Shown here: in pieces, positions 1,910-49,783 of the stretch
Layout of the letters: each line of letters begins with the position of its first letter
How positions within the stretch are numbered: position 1 is the stretch's first letter
NCBI GenBank assembly: GCA_903893215.1
Contig: CAITLJ010000070.1
Coordinates: 1 to 64,000, forward strand
From: an uncultured Ferrovum sp.
GTDB lineage: Bacteria; Pseudomonadota; Gammaproteobacteria; Burkholderiales; Ferrovaceae
Direction: 5' to 3'
DNA length: 64,000 nucleotides
Position numbers and translations under genes: made by a program
Notes under the pieces: model-generated
What the model saw: only the letters and a program-made list of their open reading frames with translations
Told to the model about the DNA's origin: nothing
Databases searched by the model: none

Positions 1910-1936
1910 TAAAGTTTTTTGGCGGCCAGCCGTAAA
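1910..1936 (+). promoter_or_regulatory. Predicted sigma-28 (FliA) promoter upstream of flhDC
   Basis: TAAAGTTT at 1910-1917, an 11-nt spacer, then GCCGTAAA at 1929-1936. The -35 is identical to the enterobacterial FliA consensus and the -10 differs from GCCGATAA at two positions. The same -10 type (GCCGTAAT) precedes motA. It lies about 190 nt before the flhD start codon. It implies FliA-dependent transcription into flhDC. Confidence 0.75.
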
Positions 1937-1986
1937 TTTTAGAACAAGTCTGACAAACCATTGTTTTACATGGTTTTGCTTTGGCA

Positions 1987-2003
1987 GTAGGATTTTTTCC
2001 TAC
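1987..2003. promoter_or_regulatory. Inverted repeat, possible response-regulator operator
   Basis: GTAGGA (1987-1992), five T bases, TCCTAC (1998-2003): a perfect 6-bp dyad. TAGGA/TCCTA dyads resemble the heptamers bound by NarL/FixJ-type regulators such as BvgA. It lies about 125 nt upstream of flhD, between the sigma-28 promoter and the gene, where a regulator of flhDC could act. A role as an operator is inference. Confidence 0.4.
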
Positions 2004-2128
2004 AAGTCATCCCCTTGAATGTCCTACGCGCGAATTGGATCTCGTCCAGTTGGCGCTTTTGGTGCTTCCCCGGAAGATACGACTCATGCGCTGACCACTA
2101 CTCAGCGATTTCCTTGGGGGGAATCACC

Positions 2129-2440
2129 ATGAACATGCAAGACCTGAATGCCGAGATCCGCGAAGCCAATCTGACCTACCTGATGCTGGCGCAGCAAATG
2201 TTGCTGGCCGATCGCATTGGCGCCATGTACCGCCTCGGCATCAACGCCGAACTGGCAGACGTGATGGCCAGGCTCACGCCGGCCCAGCTGGTCAAGATGG
2301 CCAGCACCGACATGCTGATTGCCCGCTTCCGCATGGATGAACGCACCGTGCTTGGCATGCTGAACGACTACAGCAAGGAGCGCCCGATGGCGCGCACCCA
2401 TTCGGCGATCATGCTGGCCGCCCAGCCGCTCGAAGCCTGA
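2129..2440 (+). CDS. flhD: FlhD, flagellar master regulator subunit
   Basis: FlhD (103 aa) forms a heterohexamer with FlhC that activates class II flagellar promoters with sigma-70. The sequence has the typical start MNMQDLNAEIREANLTYLML and the helical FlhD core to about residue 90. The frame is open back to 2015, but the ATG at 2129 is preceded by a G-rich ribosome site (TTGGGGGGAA) and gives the usual FlhD length. flhC follows after 68 nt. Matching FlhDC-type boxes elsewhere in the window (near 13100, 22320 and 45937) support the regulator being functional. Transcription probably depends on the signals at 1910-2003. Confidence 0.95.
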   Translation: MNMQDLNAEIREANLTYLMLAQQMLLADRIGAMYRLGINAELADVMARLTPAQLVKMASTDMLIARFRMDERTVLGMLNDYSKERPMARTHSAIMLAAQPLEA

Positions 2441-2508: not shown

Positions 2509-3078
2509 ATGGCGCAAAAAAGTCTCGTCAACGAAGCACAGGAAACCCGGTTGGTGATCGAACTGATCGAGATGGGTGCCCGGTTGCAGGTTCTGGAATC
2601 CGAGACGTCGCTGAGCCGCGAACGCCTGATCAAGCTGTACAAGGAAATCCGCCGCGAATCGCCACCCAAGGGGCTGCTGCCGTTTTCCACCGAATGGTTC
2701 ACCACCTGGTTGCCCAACATTCACGGTTCGCTGTTTGCCAACATCCATCGTTACATGACCGGACACGCCGGCCTGTCAGGTATTCAGGCCACCATGCAGG
2801 CCTATCGCCTGTATCGCGAGCATCACCATGAAGCAGATGCCGACGGTGAGCCGGTACTGGCCTTCACCCGCGCCTGGACCCTGGTGCGCTTCATGGACAG
2901 CGGCATGCTCAACCTGACGCCCTGCACCCAGTGTGGCGGTCATTTCGTCACCCACACCTACGACCTGCACAACAGCTTCGTCTGCGGCATGTGCCACATG
3001 CCCTCGCGTGCCGGCAAGACCCGCCGCGCGCGCGCGGCCGGCATTGCAGCGGAGGCAGCCCTGCAGGATGCCGCCTGA
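2509..3078 (+). CDS. flhC: FlhC, flagellar master regulator subunit
   Basis: FlhC (189 aa) is the main DNA-contacting partner of FlhD. The zinc site is intact: C139 and C142 (CTQC) with C159 and C162 (CGMC). The N-terminal part carries the conserved AxQETRLVIELIEMGARLQVLE segment. The ATG at 2509 follows a clear CCGGAG ribosome site. The length is normal for the family. A sigma-28 promoter for motA begins 40 nt after the stop, so motAB can be transcribed separately from flhDC. Confidence 0.96.
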   Translation: MAQKSLVNEAQETRLVIELIEMGARLQVLESETSLSRERLIKLYKEIRRESPPKGLLPFSTEWFTTWLPNIHGSLFANIHRYMTGHAGLSGIQATMQAYRLYREHHHEADADGEPVLAFTRAWTLVRFMDSGMLNLTPCTQCGGHFVTHTYDLHNSFVCGMCHMPSRAGKTRRARAAGIAAEAALQDAA

Positions 3079-3117: not shown

Positions 3118-3144
3118 TTAAGTTTTTATCGTATTGGCCGTAAT
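3118..3144 (+). promoter_or_regulatory. Predicted sigma-28 promoter of motAB
   Basis: TTAAGTTT at 3118-3125, an 11-nt spacer, GCCGTAAT at 3137-3144. Spacing matches the FliA consensus exactly. It lies 78 nt before the motA GTG start. Confidence 0.75.
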
Positions 3145-3221: not shown

Positions 3222-4076
3222 GTGCTAATCATCGGTGGGTACATAGTCATCCTGGGCTGCGTGTTTGGCGGCTTTGTGGCGGGCGGCGGCCATCTGGAGG
3301 CGCTGATGCAGCCGCTCGAGCTCCTGATGATTGGCGGCGCGGCGGCCGGGGCCTTTCTGGTCTCGAATGGCGGCAATGCCATCAAAGGCACGCTGAAGGC
3401 GCTGCCCACCGTGATGAAGGGCGGCGGCTATTCGAGGGCGCTCTACATGGAATTGCTTGCCTTGCTGTACGACATTTTGAGCAAGGTGCGTAAAGAAGGC
3501 CTGATGTCGATTGAAGGCGACGTCGAGAATCCGCATGACAGCCCGCTGTTCTCCAAGTACCCCAACATCGCCAAGGACCATCACATCATCGAGTTCATGA
3601 CTGACTACCTGCGTCTGATGGTCGGCGGCAACCTGAACGCACTCGAAATCGAAAACCTGATGGACATCGAGATCGAAACGCATCATTACGAAGGTCATGT
3701 GCCAGCGCACTGCATTGCCGCCGTCGGCGACGCCATGCCTGCCTTCGGCATTGTGGCTGCCGTGATGGGCGTGGTGCACACCATGGAGTCGGTGGGCATT
3801 CCTCCGGCCGAGCTGGGTATCCTGATCGCGCATGCGCTGGTCGGTACCTTCCTGGGTATCCTGCTGTCCTATGGCTTCATTGGCCCGCTGGCATCCAAGC
3901 TCACGCAAAACCTGGAAGCCAGCACCAAGGTGTTTCAGACCGTGAAAGTGACCCTGCTGGCCAGCCTGCAGGGCTATGCCCCGGCCGTGGCGGTGGAGTT
4001 TGGCCGTAAGGTGCTCTACAGCACCGAACGACCCACCTTTGGCGAACTGGAAGCCCACGTGAAGGGCGCCAAGTAA
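3222..4076 (+). CDS. motA: MotA, flagellar stator ion channel subunit
   Basis: MotA (284 aa) forms the stator ring with MotB and turns ion flow into torque on FliG. It starts with GTG at 3222 behind AGGGAT. The four membrane segments lie at the two ends, around a large cytoplasmic loop. Key residues fall at the same numbers as in Escherichia coli MotA: R90 and E98 (which contact FliG) and P173 and P222. The proton-type motif PAFGIVAAVMGVVHTM is present. motB starts 3 nt after the stop, so the two are co-translated. Confidence 0.97.
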   Translation: MLIIGGYIVILGCVFGGFVAGGGHLEALMQPLELLMIGGAAAGAFLVSNGGNAIKGTLKALPTVMKGGGYSRALYMELLALLYDILSKVRKEGLMSIEGDVENPHDSPLFSKYPNIAKDHHIIEFMTDYLRLMVGGNLNALEIENLMDIEIETHHYEGHVPAHCIAAVGDAMPAFGIVAAVMGVVHTMESVGIPPAELGILIAHALVGTFLGILLSYGFIGPLASKLTQNLEASTKVFQTVKVTLLASLQGYAPAVAVEFGRKVLYSTERPTFGELEAHVKGAK

Positions 4077-13097: not shown

Positions 13098-13165
13098 CAA
13101 GCTTGAATAAGCCCGCTTTACCGGGTCTCCTTGGCTCTTTGGCCCCTCCCTGCGCAACCGATAAT
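13098..13165 (+). promoter_or_regulatory. Predicted FlhDC box and class II promoter of flhB
   Basis: Left half-site CAAGC-TTG-AATAAGC (13098-13112) and a weaker right half from 13126 (TCTCCTT-GGC-TCTTT). A -10-like GATAAT lies at 13160-13165, 34 nt from the inner edge of the right half. Layout matches the boxes at flgA/flgB and fliF/fliE. The flhB start is about 70 nt further on. Confidence 0.6.
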
Positions 13166-19352: not shown

Positions 19353-20084
19353 ATGTACAAACCGAATGGACGAGTGAATCAGGAATTGATCCTGAAGGAA
19401 CACGCGCCGCTGGTTCGCCGAATTGCGCATCACATGATTTCCAAGCTGCCCCCCTCCGTGGACGTGGAAGACCTGGTGCAGGCGGGCATGATCGGTCTGC
19501 TGGATGCGATCAATCGTTACGAGGAAGAACAGGGCGCGCAATTCTCGACCTATGCGGCGCAACGGATCCGCGGTGCCATGCTCGACGAGCTGCGCGAGAG
19601 CGACTGGCTGCCACGCGGCCAGCGCAAGAACATGCGCCGGGTGGAGGAAGCGATCAACCAGTTGCAGCAGCGGCTGGCCCGGGCACCAAAGGAAACCGAG
19701 CTGGCCGAGCACATGGGCATTCCGCTCGCCGAATTCCAGCAACTGCTGCAGGATGCGCGCGGTTACCAGCTCATCCATTATGAGGATTACAACGACGAGG
19801 ACGATGATCACTTCCTCGACCGCAATGCGCCGGACCGCAGCAACGACCCGCTGGGCAACCTGCTGGATGACGACCTGCGCACCAGCCTGATCGCGGCGAT
19901 CGGCAACCTGCCCGAGCGCGAAAAGATCCTGATGGGGCTGTACTACGAGCAGGAACTCAACCTGCGTGAAATTGGCGCCGTGCTGGGTGTGAGCGAATCG
20001 CGCGTGTGCCAGTTGCACAGCCAGGCCGTGGCCCGCCTGCGTGCTGCGCTGCGTGAACGCGCCTGGAGCTCGGTGGCCACCTGA
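19353..20084 (+). CDS. fliA: FliA, flagellar sigma factor 28
   Basis: Sigma-28 (243 aa) directs class III flagellar genes and is held inactive by FlgM until the hook is finished. Region 2 (PPSVDVEDLVQAGMIGLLDAINRYE and QFSTYAAQRIRGAMLDELR), region 3 and the region 4 helix-turn-helix (LREIGAVLGVSESRVCQLHSQAVARL) are complete. It ends the flhB-flhA-flhF-flhG-fliA unit. Several promoters in this window fit its specificity, and one lies before flhDC, its own indirect activator. Confidence 0.97.
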   Translation: MYKPNGRVNQELILKEHAPLVRRIAHHMISKLPPSVDVEDLVQAGMIGLLDAINRYEEEQGAQFSTYAAQRIRGAMLDELRESDWLPRGQRKNMRRVEEAINQLQQRLARAPKETELAEHMGIPLAEFQQLLQDARGYQLIHYEDYNDEDDDHFLDRNAPDRSNDPLGNLLDDDLRTSLIAAIGNLPEREKILMGLYYEQELNLREIGAVLGVSESRVCQLHSQAVARLRAALRERAWSSVAT

Positions 20085-20926: not shown

Positions 20927-21298
20927 TCAAGCTCCCTGGCCTTGTTGGGCACTGCGTGAATTGAGCATTTCCTGCACGCTCTGGATCAGCTTGTCGGCCA
21001 CTTTTTCCGGATTGACCTGGAACGAGCCATTGGAGATGGCCTGTTTGATCGAGGCCACCTGCTTGGTGTCGAACACTTCGCCGGAACCCGAGGCGGCCAG
21101 CGCAGCCTGCAGTTGCGCGGCAACCGGGCTCAGCGTGACCTTGGCACTGTCGGCCTGGGCAGCGCCGCTGGTGTTGGCACTGGCGCCCGTCGGTGCGGCA
21201 CTGGCAGCACCGCCGGAGCGCTGTGCGCCTGCCGTCGAGTTGCTGCCGGAGGCGCTGTTGGCGCCACCGACCGAACCTGGTGTCTTGCCGATTTTCAT
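20927..21298 (-). CDS. flgM: FlgM, anti-sigma-28 factor
   Basis: FlgM (123 aa) binds FliA and is exported through the finished hook-basal body, which releases class III genes. The C-terminal sigma-binding part is conserved (KVTLSPVAAQLQAAL, FDTKQVASIKQAISNGSFQVNPEKVADKLIQSVQEML). The N-terminal 50 residues are Gly/Ser/Ala-rich and disordered, as expected for an export substrate. Start at 21298 behind GGAG. A sigma-28 promoter lies 34-60 nt upstream, which gives the usual feedback loop, and flgN is co-transcribed. Confidence 0.95.
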   Translation of the reverse strand: MKIGKTPGSVGGANSASGSNSTAGAQRSGGAASAAPTGASANTSGAAQADSAKVTLSPVAAQLQAALAASGSGEVFDTKQVASIKQAISNGSFQVNPEKVADKLIQSVQEMLNSRSAQQGQGA

Positions 21299-21331: not shown

Positions 21332-21358
21332 TTAACGGCCGCGGCAAGGTTTTCTTTA
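21332..21358 (-). promoter_or_regulatory. Predicted sigma-28 promoter of flgM-flgN
   Basis: On the minus strand TAAAGAAA (21358-21351), an 11-nt spacer, GCCGTTAA (21339-21332). The -10 is identical to that of flgK and the -35 to that of cheV. It lies between the flgA hairpin and the flgM start. Confidence 0.82.
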
Positions 21359-33680: not shown

Positions 33681-34152
33681 CACGGCGGGGCGTTGCAGCC
33701 GCTGCGGCCCCGCCCGGGCCGCGCGGCTGTCGCGAAGAGCTACTCGGCGCTGCGCGCAACGCTCCCCGCCGCCCGGGCGCGCTCCAGCATCAGGTTCAGT
33801 TCAAGCAGACCCCGGGCATGCGCGTCCCGGGCATTGATCGACAGGGTCTGCGTGGCGGGCGTAGTCCTTGCCACCGGGCTGCCCGAGCCCAAGGCCTCTA
33901 CAACAGCACGACCCTTGCGCCCCAGCCACCAGGTGCGCAATTGCAGCCGCCAGCGCGGCAGCGGGGCGGGTGACACGACCGTCAGGGTCAGGGGCAGGGT
34001 CAGGATCTTGGTGTGCATGCTGGAAACTCCCTAAGGGGACACACGCGGGGGGCTGACATGCAGCGGATCACGCGGCGTCCTGAGCAGAATCAACGGCAGC
34101 TTCGGGAAAAACTTGAAGCCGTGGTGCGTCGGTGGCGTTGGGGGCCGCGTCA
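33681..34152. other. Region between convergent flgL and fliR
   Basis: 472 bp with one probable small minus-strand gene (33740-34018) and a GC-rich hairpin just after flgL (GCGGCCC/GGGCCGC, 33704-33722). The 134 bp between the small gene and fliR show no clear signal. Confidence 0.5.
33740..34018 (-). CDS. Small protein of unknown function downstream of fliR
   Basis: A 92-residue frame starting at ATG 34018 behind a good AGGGAG ribosome site, on the same strand as fliR and 134 nt downstream of it. The product is basic, with a hydrophobic start (MHTKILTLPLTLTVV), a basic Trp-rich stretch (RWRLQLRTWWLGRKGR) and a C-terminal helix rich in Leu, Glu and Arg. I do not recognise a family. Coding status rests mainly on the ribosome site and position. 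Confidence 0.45.
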   Translation of the reverse strand: MHTKILTLPLTLTVVSPAPLPRWRLQLRTWWLGRKGRAVVEALGSGSPVARTTPATQTLSINARDAHARGLLELNLMLERARAAGSVARSAE

Positions 34153-49605: not shown

Positions 49606-49783
49606 ACTGCAGGACGGATTCTCCGCGTGCCGTTGTTGTTTCCTGCGGGCGATGAAGGTGGAAAAACCCCGGTATTTCCCGGCACGGCATATAAGGCGGA
49701 AACCAGTCCTTATTTTGACGATGGCGCACTTGTAGGATGTTTTAGGCTTGACACGGGCCAGAAAGATTTTTCAGGTGCCGGTT

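Follow-up and report, generated by a model that had tools for sequence, protein, structure and literature searches.

A conserved sigma-28 promoter upstream of the flagellar master operon flhDC in Ferrovaceae and its likely part in a feedback loop

In the textbook flagellar cascade, flhDC stands alone on top and the sigma factor FliA (sigma-28) acts only downstream of it. Kutsukake is said to have described, in 1997, an autogenous control of Salmonella flhD in which FliA has a part, and to our knowledge no conserved sigma-28 site is known there. In an E. coli network paper, flhDC is the only class I unit (PMC4183435). The positive feedback on FlhDC described in Salmonella is indirect and does not involve sigma-28 at flhDC: FliZ represses ydiV (PMC4173784; FliZ–YdiV also PMC5809477), with further indirect feedback via FliZ–HilD at the flhDC promoter P5 (PMC3946378), while the sigma-28 transcript of Salmonella fliA is translationally inert according to Tanabe (2011) as cited in PMC4173784. 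In E. coli, the sigma-28-dependent small RNAs UhpU, MotR, FliX and FlgO feed back on the regulon, and UhpU, as a repressor of lrhA, is expected to increase FlhDC by an indirect route (PMC10578931). A search of openly accessible literature turned up no paper that describes flhDC as having a sigma-28 promoter.

Here we describe such a site in the window, by which we mean the whole stretch of 64,000 nucleotides that was analysed. Its host is a Ferrovum-like betaproteobacterium whose FlhC is 87% identical to that of ‘uncultured Ferrovum sp.’; the first 30 positions of the window, ctctttccctacacgacgctcttccgatct, are presumably an Illumina adapter, that is, an assembly contaminant and not genome. 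The flhD and flhC genes (Table 1) are adjacent and of the flagellar type, with matches above cut-off, and are followed by motA at 3222, which places the master operon before motAB/che. On sequence grounds, we think it probable that the element at 1910–1936 is a genuine FliA promoter of flhDC that would close a direct positive loop from FlhDC to FliA and back to FlhDC.

Table 1. Positions in the window of the flhDC locus, the components of the proposed loop and related sites.
Feature	Position	Strand	Basis
Sigma-28 (FliA) promoter element	1910..1936	+	-35 TAAAGTTT 1910-1917, 11-nt spacer TTTGGCGGCCA, -10 GCCGTAAA 1929-1936
Expected FliA transcription start	1942..1946	+	inferred from usual sigma-28 geometry, 6-9 nt past -10
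Predicted FliA-dependent flhDC leader, ~186 nt	1943..2128	+	inferred start
Sigma-70-like site TTTACA-17-TAGGAT, candidate housekeeping promoter	1965..1993	+	consensus scan only, 9/12
Palindrome GTAGGA-N5-TCCTAC	1987..2003	.	conserved before flhD in family
Imperfect inverted repeat GCGCGAATTGGA/TCCAGTTGGCGC in leader	2028..2056	+	sequence; fold; genus has hairpin at similar position
flhD	2129..2440	+	Pfam PF05247 E 8e-37; NCBIfam FlhD
flhC	2509..3078	+	Pfam PF05280 E 6e-82; NCBIfam FlhC
FliA site before motA, ordinary class III	3118..3144	+	consensus scan
FlhDC-box-like inverted repeat AATAAGCCC...GGGTCTCC before flhB	13106..13131	+	pattern derived from same window, weak
fliA, last gene of flhB-flhA-flhF-fleN-fliA	19353..20084	+	NCBIfam FliA E 7e-94; Pfam sigma-70 r2, r3, r4
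flgM, anti-sigma-28, next to fliA	20927..21298	-	Pfam PF04316; NCBIfam FlgM
FliA-like site before flgM	21332-21358	-	consensus scan

The site upstream of flhD and its conservation in Ferrovaceae

An earlier note, made from the letters of the window, had claimed TAAAGTTT-N11-GCCGTAAA at 1910–1936 as one of the best FliA matches in the window. Letters, coordinates and the spacer of 11 are all exact, and the ranking was understated, as the site ranks first in the window and also genome-wide. A window scan for TAAAGTTT-N11-GCCGNTAA with up to three mismatches returned six matches against 0.23 expected from shuffles, and 1910–1936 has the fewest mismatches of the six (one, or two against the strict E. 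coli -10 GCCGATAA); tested against the consensus, it matches at 8/8 positions of the -35 and 6/8 of the strict -10 (7/8 if GCCGT is allowed), at a spacing of 11. The five other matches, at motA (3118), flgM (21332, minus strand), flgK (29811), fliC (49784) and, adjacent to fliR, an unnamed ORF (34090, minus strand), are mostly at class III positions, which shows that the scan finds real sites and that this genome uses the motif. The ORF behind the FliA-like site at 34090–34116 (minus strand) encodes 92 amino acids (33740–34018, minus strand) with no Pfam match, and may be an unknown class III gene.

Across the 3.27 Mb genome, 1910–1936 is the only zero-mismatch occurrence of TAAAGTTT-N11-GCCGWWA, and three others have one mismatch. 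At three mismatches the same pattern gives 75 matches and its reversed control 138, so that only the top few matches are informative. This failure to exceed the control is what could be said for a chance match or relic, a reading that we regard as extremely improbable given that the site is the best match of the genome, leaves a footprint in 21 species and has controls that are empty upstream of flhD. The site is intergenic, in a 548-base region between a hupE-like ORF (ending at 1580) and flhD, and is directed at flhD, whose ATG follows at 219 nt. A weaker second candidate after hupE (TAAAGTCC-N12-GCCGTAAC, ~1632–1659) is incorrectly spaced and did not enter the counts.

The earlier note had proposed a search for the same site before flhDC in related genomes. 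In a family made up of the host genome and 31 other genomes, which we named Ferrovaceae by inference, the site was found in 21 of the 22 members with flhDC. In these 21, whose region upstream of flhDC is complete, it lies 219–256 nt before flhD, and there is no variation among them in the eight bases of the -35, in the C just before these bases or in the 11-nt spacing. The 16 core positions are 92.7% identical within the genus and 92.8% within the family, as against 36% and 42%, respectively, for the spacer and a background level of 29–47% for the flanks. This disparity between a core at about 93% and a spacer at 36–42% points to selection on the positions that FliA would contact. The other family members match the consensus at 14–16 of 16 positions; the commonest form of the -10 is GCCGATAA in sister genera and GCCGTWAW in the window's genus, the latter being also the form at the window's motA site. 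In a genome scan at up to one mismatch, whose reversed-pattern control was almost empty (a handful of matches), 13 family genomes hold a perfect TAAAGTTT-N11-GCCGATAA; the flhDC site is among these perfect matches in all 13 and is the sole one in 10.

The site is retained with four different upstream neighbours, all named by eye from sequence except flhB and hupE: hupE in the same direction (the window and G002), and, in divergent orientation, a phosphomannomutase-like (manB-like) gene (G003, G004), a CheR-like gene (G016) or flhB (G005 and others). The G004 contig is masked after flhD, with flhD and the distal FliA site present. As the site stays with flhD while its upstream neighbour changes, it appears to belong to flhDC. 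That the promoter instead serves an upstream or divergent gene and lies near flhDC by accident is barely conceivable to us: additional antisense FliA-like sites do occur in the same intergenic region of four Methylophilaceae, but the upstream neighbour varies between genera and the Ferrovaceae site always points toward flhD, the upstream regions of Ferrovaceae flhD containing neither an antisense site nor a reversed-pattern match.

The single exception, G015, is the only member that has flhDC and a full upstream region without the site. Here an IS transposase-like gene lies directly upstream of flhD, a truncated cheA follows flhC, and searches of the genome (88% complete) for fliA, flhB and flagellin gave no match. 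In this one case, from an incomplete genome, the flhDC site seems to be gone where its sigma factor seems to be gone. Taken as a claim about the promoter, then, the proposal of a sigma-28 site in front of flhDC is strongly supported at the sequence level by selection on contact positions, orientation, distance, the change of neighbours and G015.

Regulatory wiring and the predicted leader

The palindrome at 1987–2003 is likely an operator. Ferrovaceae have it conserved at roughly -110 to -145 relative to flhD, and many Burkholderiales carry TGTARG-N7-CCTACA-like forms at the same place, sometimes as two copies 23 nt apart; its half-sites are oriented much as in the RcsAB box at flhDC of E. coli. 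In the mechanism that we propose, a basal sigma-70 promoter nearer flhD would start the programme, probably governed by a regulator on the TAGGA-N5-TCCTA palindrome, and FlhDC would then activate the class II operon flhB-flhA-flhF-fleN-fliA. Export of FlgM at the end of hook-basal body assembly would release FliA, which would transcribe flhDC from 1910–1936 with a leader of ~186 nt, and the additional FlhDC would close the direct positive loop, with FlgM as its brake; motility expression might then be switch-like, as the earlier note proposed. We regard the conserved promoter as real and the loop as likely, its transcription start, read-through into flhD, translation of the long transcript and gain in FlhDC being predicted steps.

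For the link from FlhDC to FliA, the earlier note had expected a class II box before flhB. Inverted repeats of the form AATARGCC-N9-GGCYTTATT, which we take to resemble the E. coli FlhDC box, occur in the flgA/flgB and fliE/fliF intergenic regions, and a weaker form occurs before flhB. The pattern has nine matches versus 0–3 in shuffles, and is suggestive only, as it was drawn from these same regions. A further inverted repeat, TATAAGG...CCTTATT (49690–49714), lies ~70 nt upstream of the fliC FliA site and is a possible FlhDC box. With fliA, flgM and the box-like repeat before the flhB...fliA operon all in the window, the anatomy of the loop would be complete; of the parts named by the earlier note, fliA and flgM are present as genes and the box as a candidate repeat whose pattern comes from the same window.

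The sigma-70-like site and the conserved palindrome both lie inside the path of the FliA transcript, as might be expected if FliA polymerase bound without useful transcription of flhDC and instead occluded or timed the downstream sigma-70 promoter through transcription interference. We consider this very unlikely. From family to family the distance to flhD ranges from ~219 to >400 nt, while both hexamers, their spacing of 11 and the direction are retained; this is more in keeping with a promoter of flhDC than with a blocker in a set position.

The main alternative, also named by the earlier note, concerns the leader itself, in that the FliA promoter may chiefly yield a leader or small RNA of 60–190 nt. 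Its hairpins would terminate or attenuate transcription, or else prevent translation, and it would act as a separate RNA or as a limiter of flhDC, not as an activator. Sigma-28-dependent small RNAs are known in E. coli (PMC10578931), and the stretch from start to palindrome, ~50 nt longer in sister genera, folds there better than shuffles in most members (z to -4.9), with stems whose sequence varies from genus to genus. A hairpin with a T-rich tail is present in 21 of 48 site-bearing leaders versus five expected, mostly those of sister genera and Methylophilaceae, suggesting that part of the FliA transcript may stop early, and in Methylophilaceae there is a long inverted repeat whose arms covary. 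Against this, the same stretch in the window's genus folds no better than shuffles (z 0 to -1.5), and no terminators beyond chance were found between the site and flhD in the window. The position of the terminator-like hairpins changes from one genus to the next, no family-wide consensus structure emerged when RNAalifold was applied to MAFFT alignments of the Ferrovaceae leaders, and Rfam gave no convincing match in the flhDC leaders (two weak ones, both in L161, are below the gathering score). An attenuated leader or small RNA is therefore a serious rival in the sister genera and less so in the window; overall we judge it unlikely.

Two further candidates in the leader were set aside. Extended to 2160, the window's leader folds with z -2.9, and sequestration of the Shine-Dalgarno region by pairing with 2061–2073 is predicted in it; this pairing is not clear-cut across the family and is not claimed here, and a 37-aa ORF overlapping the flhD start (~2018–2131) was dropped because the nearest relative is without its ATG. 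Early-stop hairpins, the predicted Shine-Dalgarno pairing, the reported inertness in translation of the Salmonella fliA sigma-28 transcript and the lack of the site in many Burkholderiales with flhDC are the points that we counted against the loop, which we still take to be the better account of the site.

Distribution beyond the family

In a sample of the order, 46 of 97 members with flhDC (21 families) carry a sense site with at least 14/16 matches within 600 bases of flhD, as compared with no sites in the controls, antisense sites in five members, and a chance rate of ~0.06% per 500-base region for a site of at least 14/16. The Methylophilaceae, the family of Methylobacillus, stand at 15 of 18 members with the site, nine of them with two or more (in Methylobacillus two, at about -300 and -410), and the site also occurs in parts of six other families. 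No site was found before flhDC in 13 families of the sample, or in the loci of Polaromonas, Rhodoferax, Thiobacillus, Nitrosospira and Gilliamella. E. coli K-12 flhDC likewise has no FliA site: the best score before flhD is 10/16 versus 14/16 at its motA, which indicates that the method sees a true site and that there is none at flhDC. One may entertain, tentatively, that flhDC works as a two-promoter switch in Ferrovaceae and in many of their betaproteobacterial relatives. Export of FlgM on hook completion would let FliA re-express the master regulator from a dedicated sigma-28 promoter, and only this sigma-28 transcript would have a structured leader, which would modulate its translation or early termination. 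If this were true, the class I/II/III ladder would become a ring.

Several observations were made alongside. The antisense FliA-like sites before flhD in the four Methylophilaceae (14/16; L137, L139, L142, L148) suggest a possible divergent FliA promoter in the intergenic region of these loci. Also in Methylophilaceae (L008, L036, L135, L148, L151 and others), a long near-perfect inverted repeat lies ~140–210 nt before flhD, its arms covarying on either side of a core, TTTGTAAGACAAA, that hardly varies (GCCGATACAGTGTTTGTAAGACAAACACTGTATCGGC is one example of the repeat); it has no Rfam match in the loci scanned, and may be a conserved RNA or cruciform element of the flhDC leader. The host genome itself has a second, divergent FlhD-like and FlhC-like pair (L002, contig C66, 1465–2311, minus strand) beside a conjugative coupling-protein-like gene; the pair resembles the SetCD-type regulators found on integrative elements, and FlhC-like copies are also present in family members without flagellar genes.

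Comparison with known flagellar systems

Most of the circuit resembles the cascade of E. coli and Salmonella, with FlhDC as class I, fliA as class II, FlgM as anti-sigma factor and FliA sites at motA, flgM, flgK and fliC; it differs in the FliA site at flhDC, which E. coli K-12 lacks. An extra FliA promoter beside the main one is likewise found in operons with dual class 2/class 3 promoters (fliAZ, fliDST and flgK), but those operons are class II, whereas flhDC here is the class I master. The E. coli small RNAs UhpU, MotR, FliX and FlgO also differ, none of them being transcribed from the flhDC upstream region toward flhD as would be the case here.

A sigma-28 promoter on flhDC would mean that the top of the ladder answers to its bottom, and that the master regulator is tied to hook completion through FlgM export. 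For acidophilic iron oxidisers and for methylotrophs it would provide a direct and testable origin of all-or-none motility. The families with no, one or two sites form a comparative series for asking why some lineages have the loop. In Bacillus subtilis, sigma-D and swrA form a positive loop in which the flagellar sigma factor transcribes the master activator, and this loop is linked to bistable motility. It is the system nearest in kind to the one proposed here, although the B. subtilis master regulator and phylum are unrelated to those of the flhDC host.
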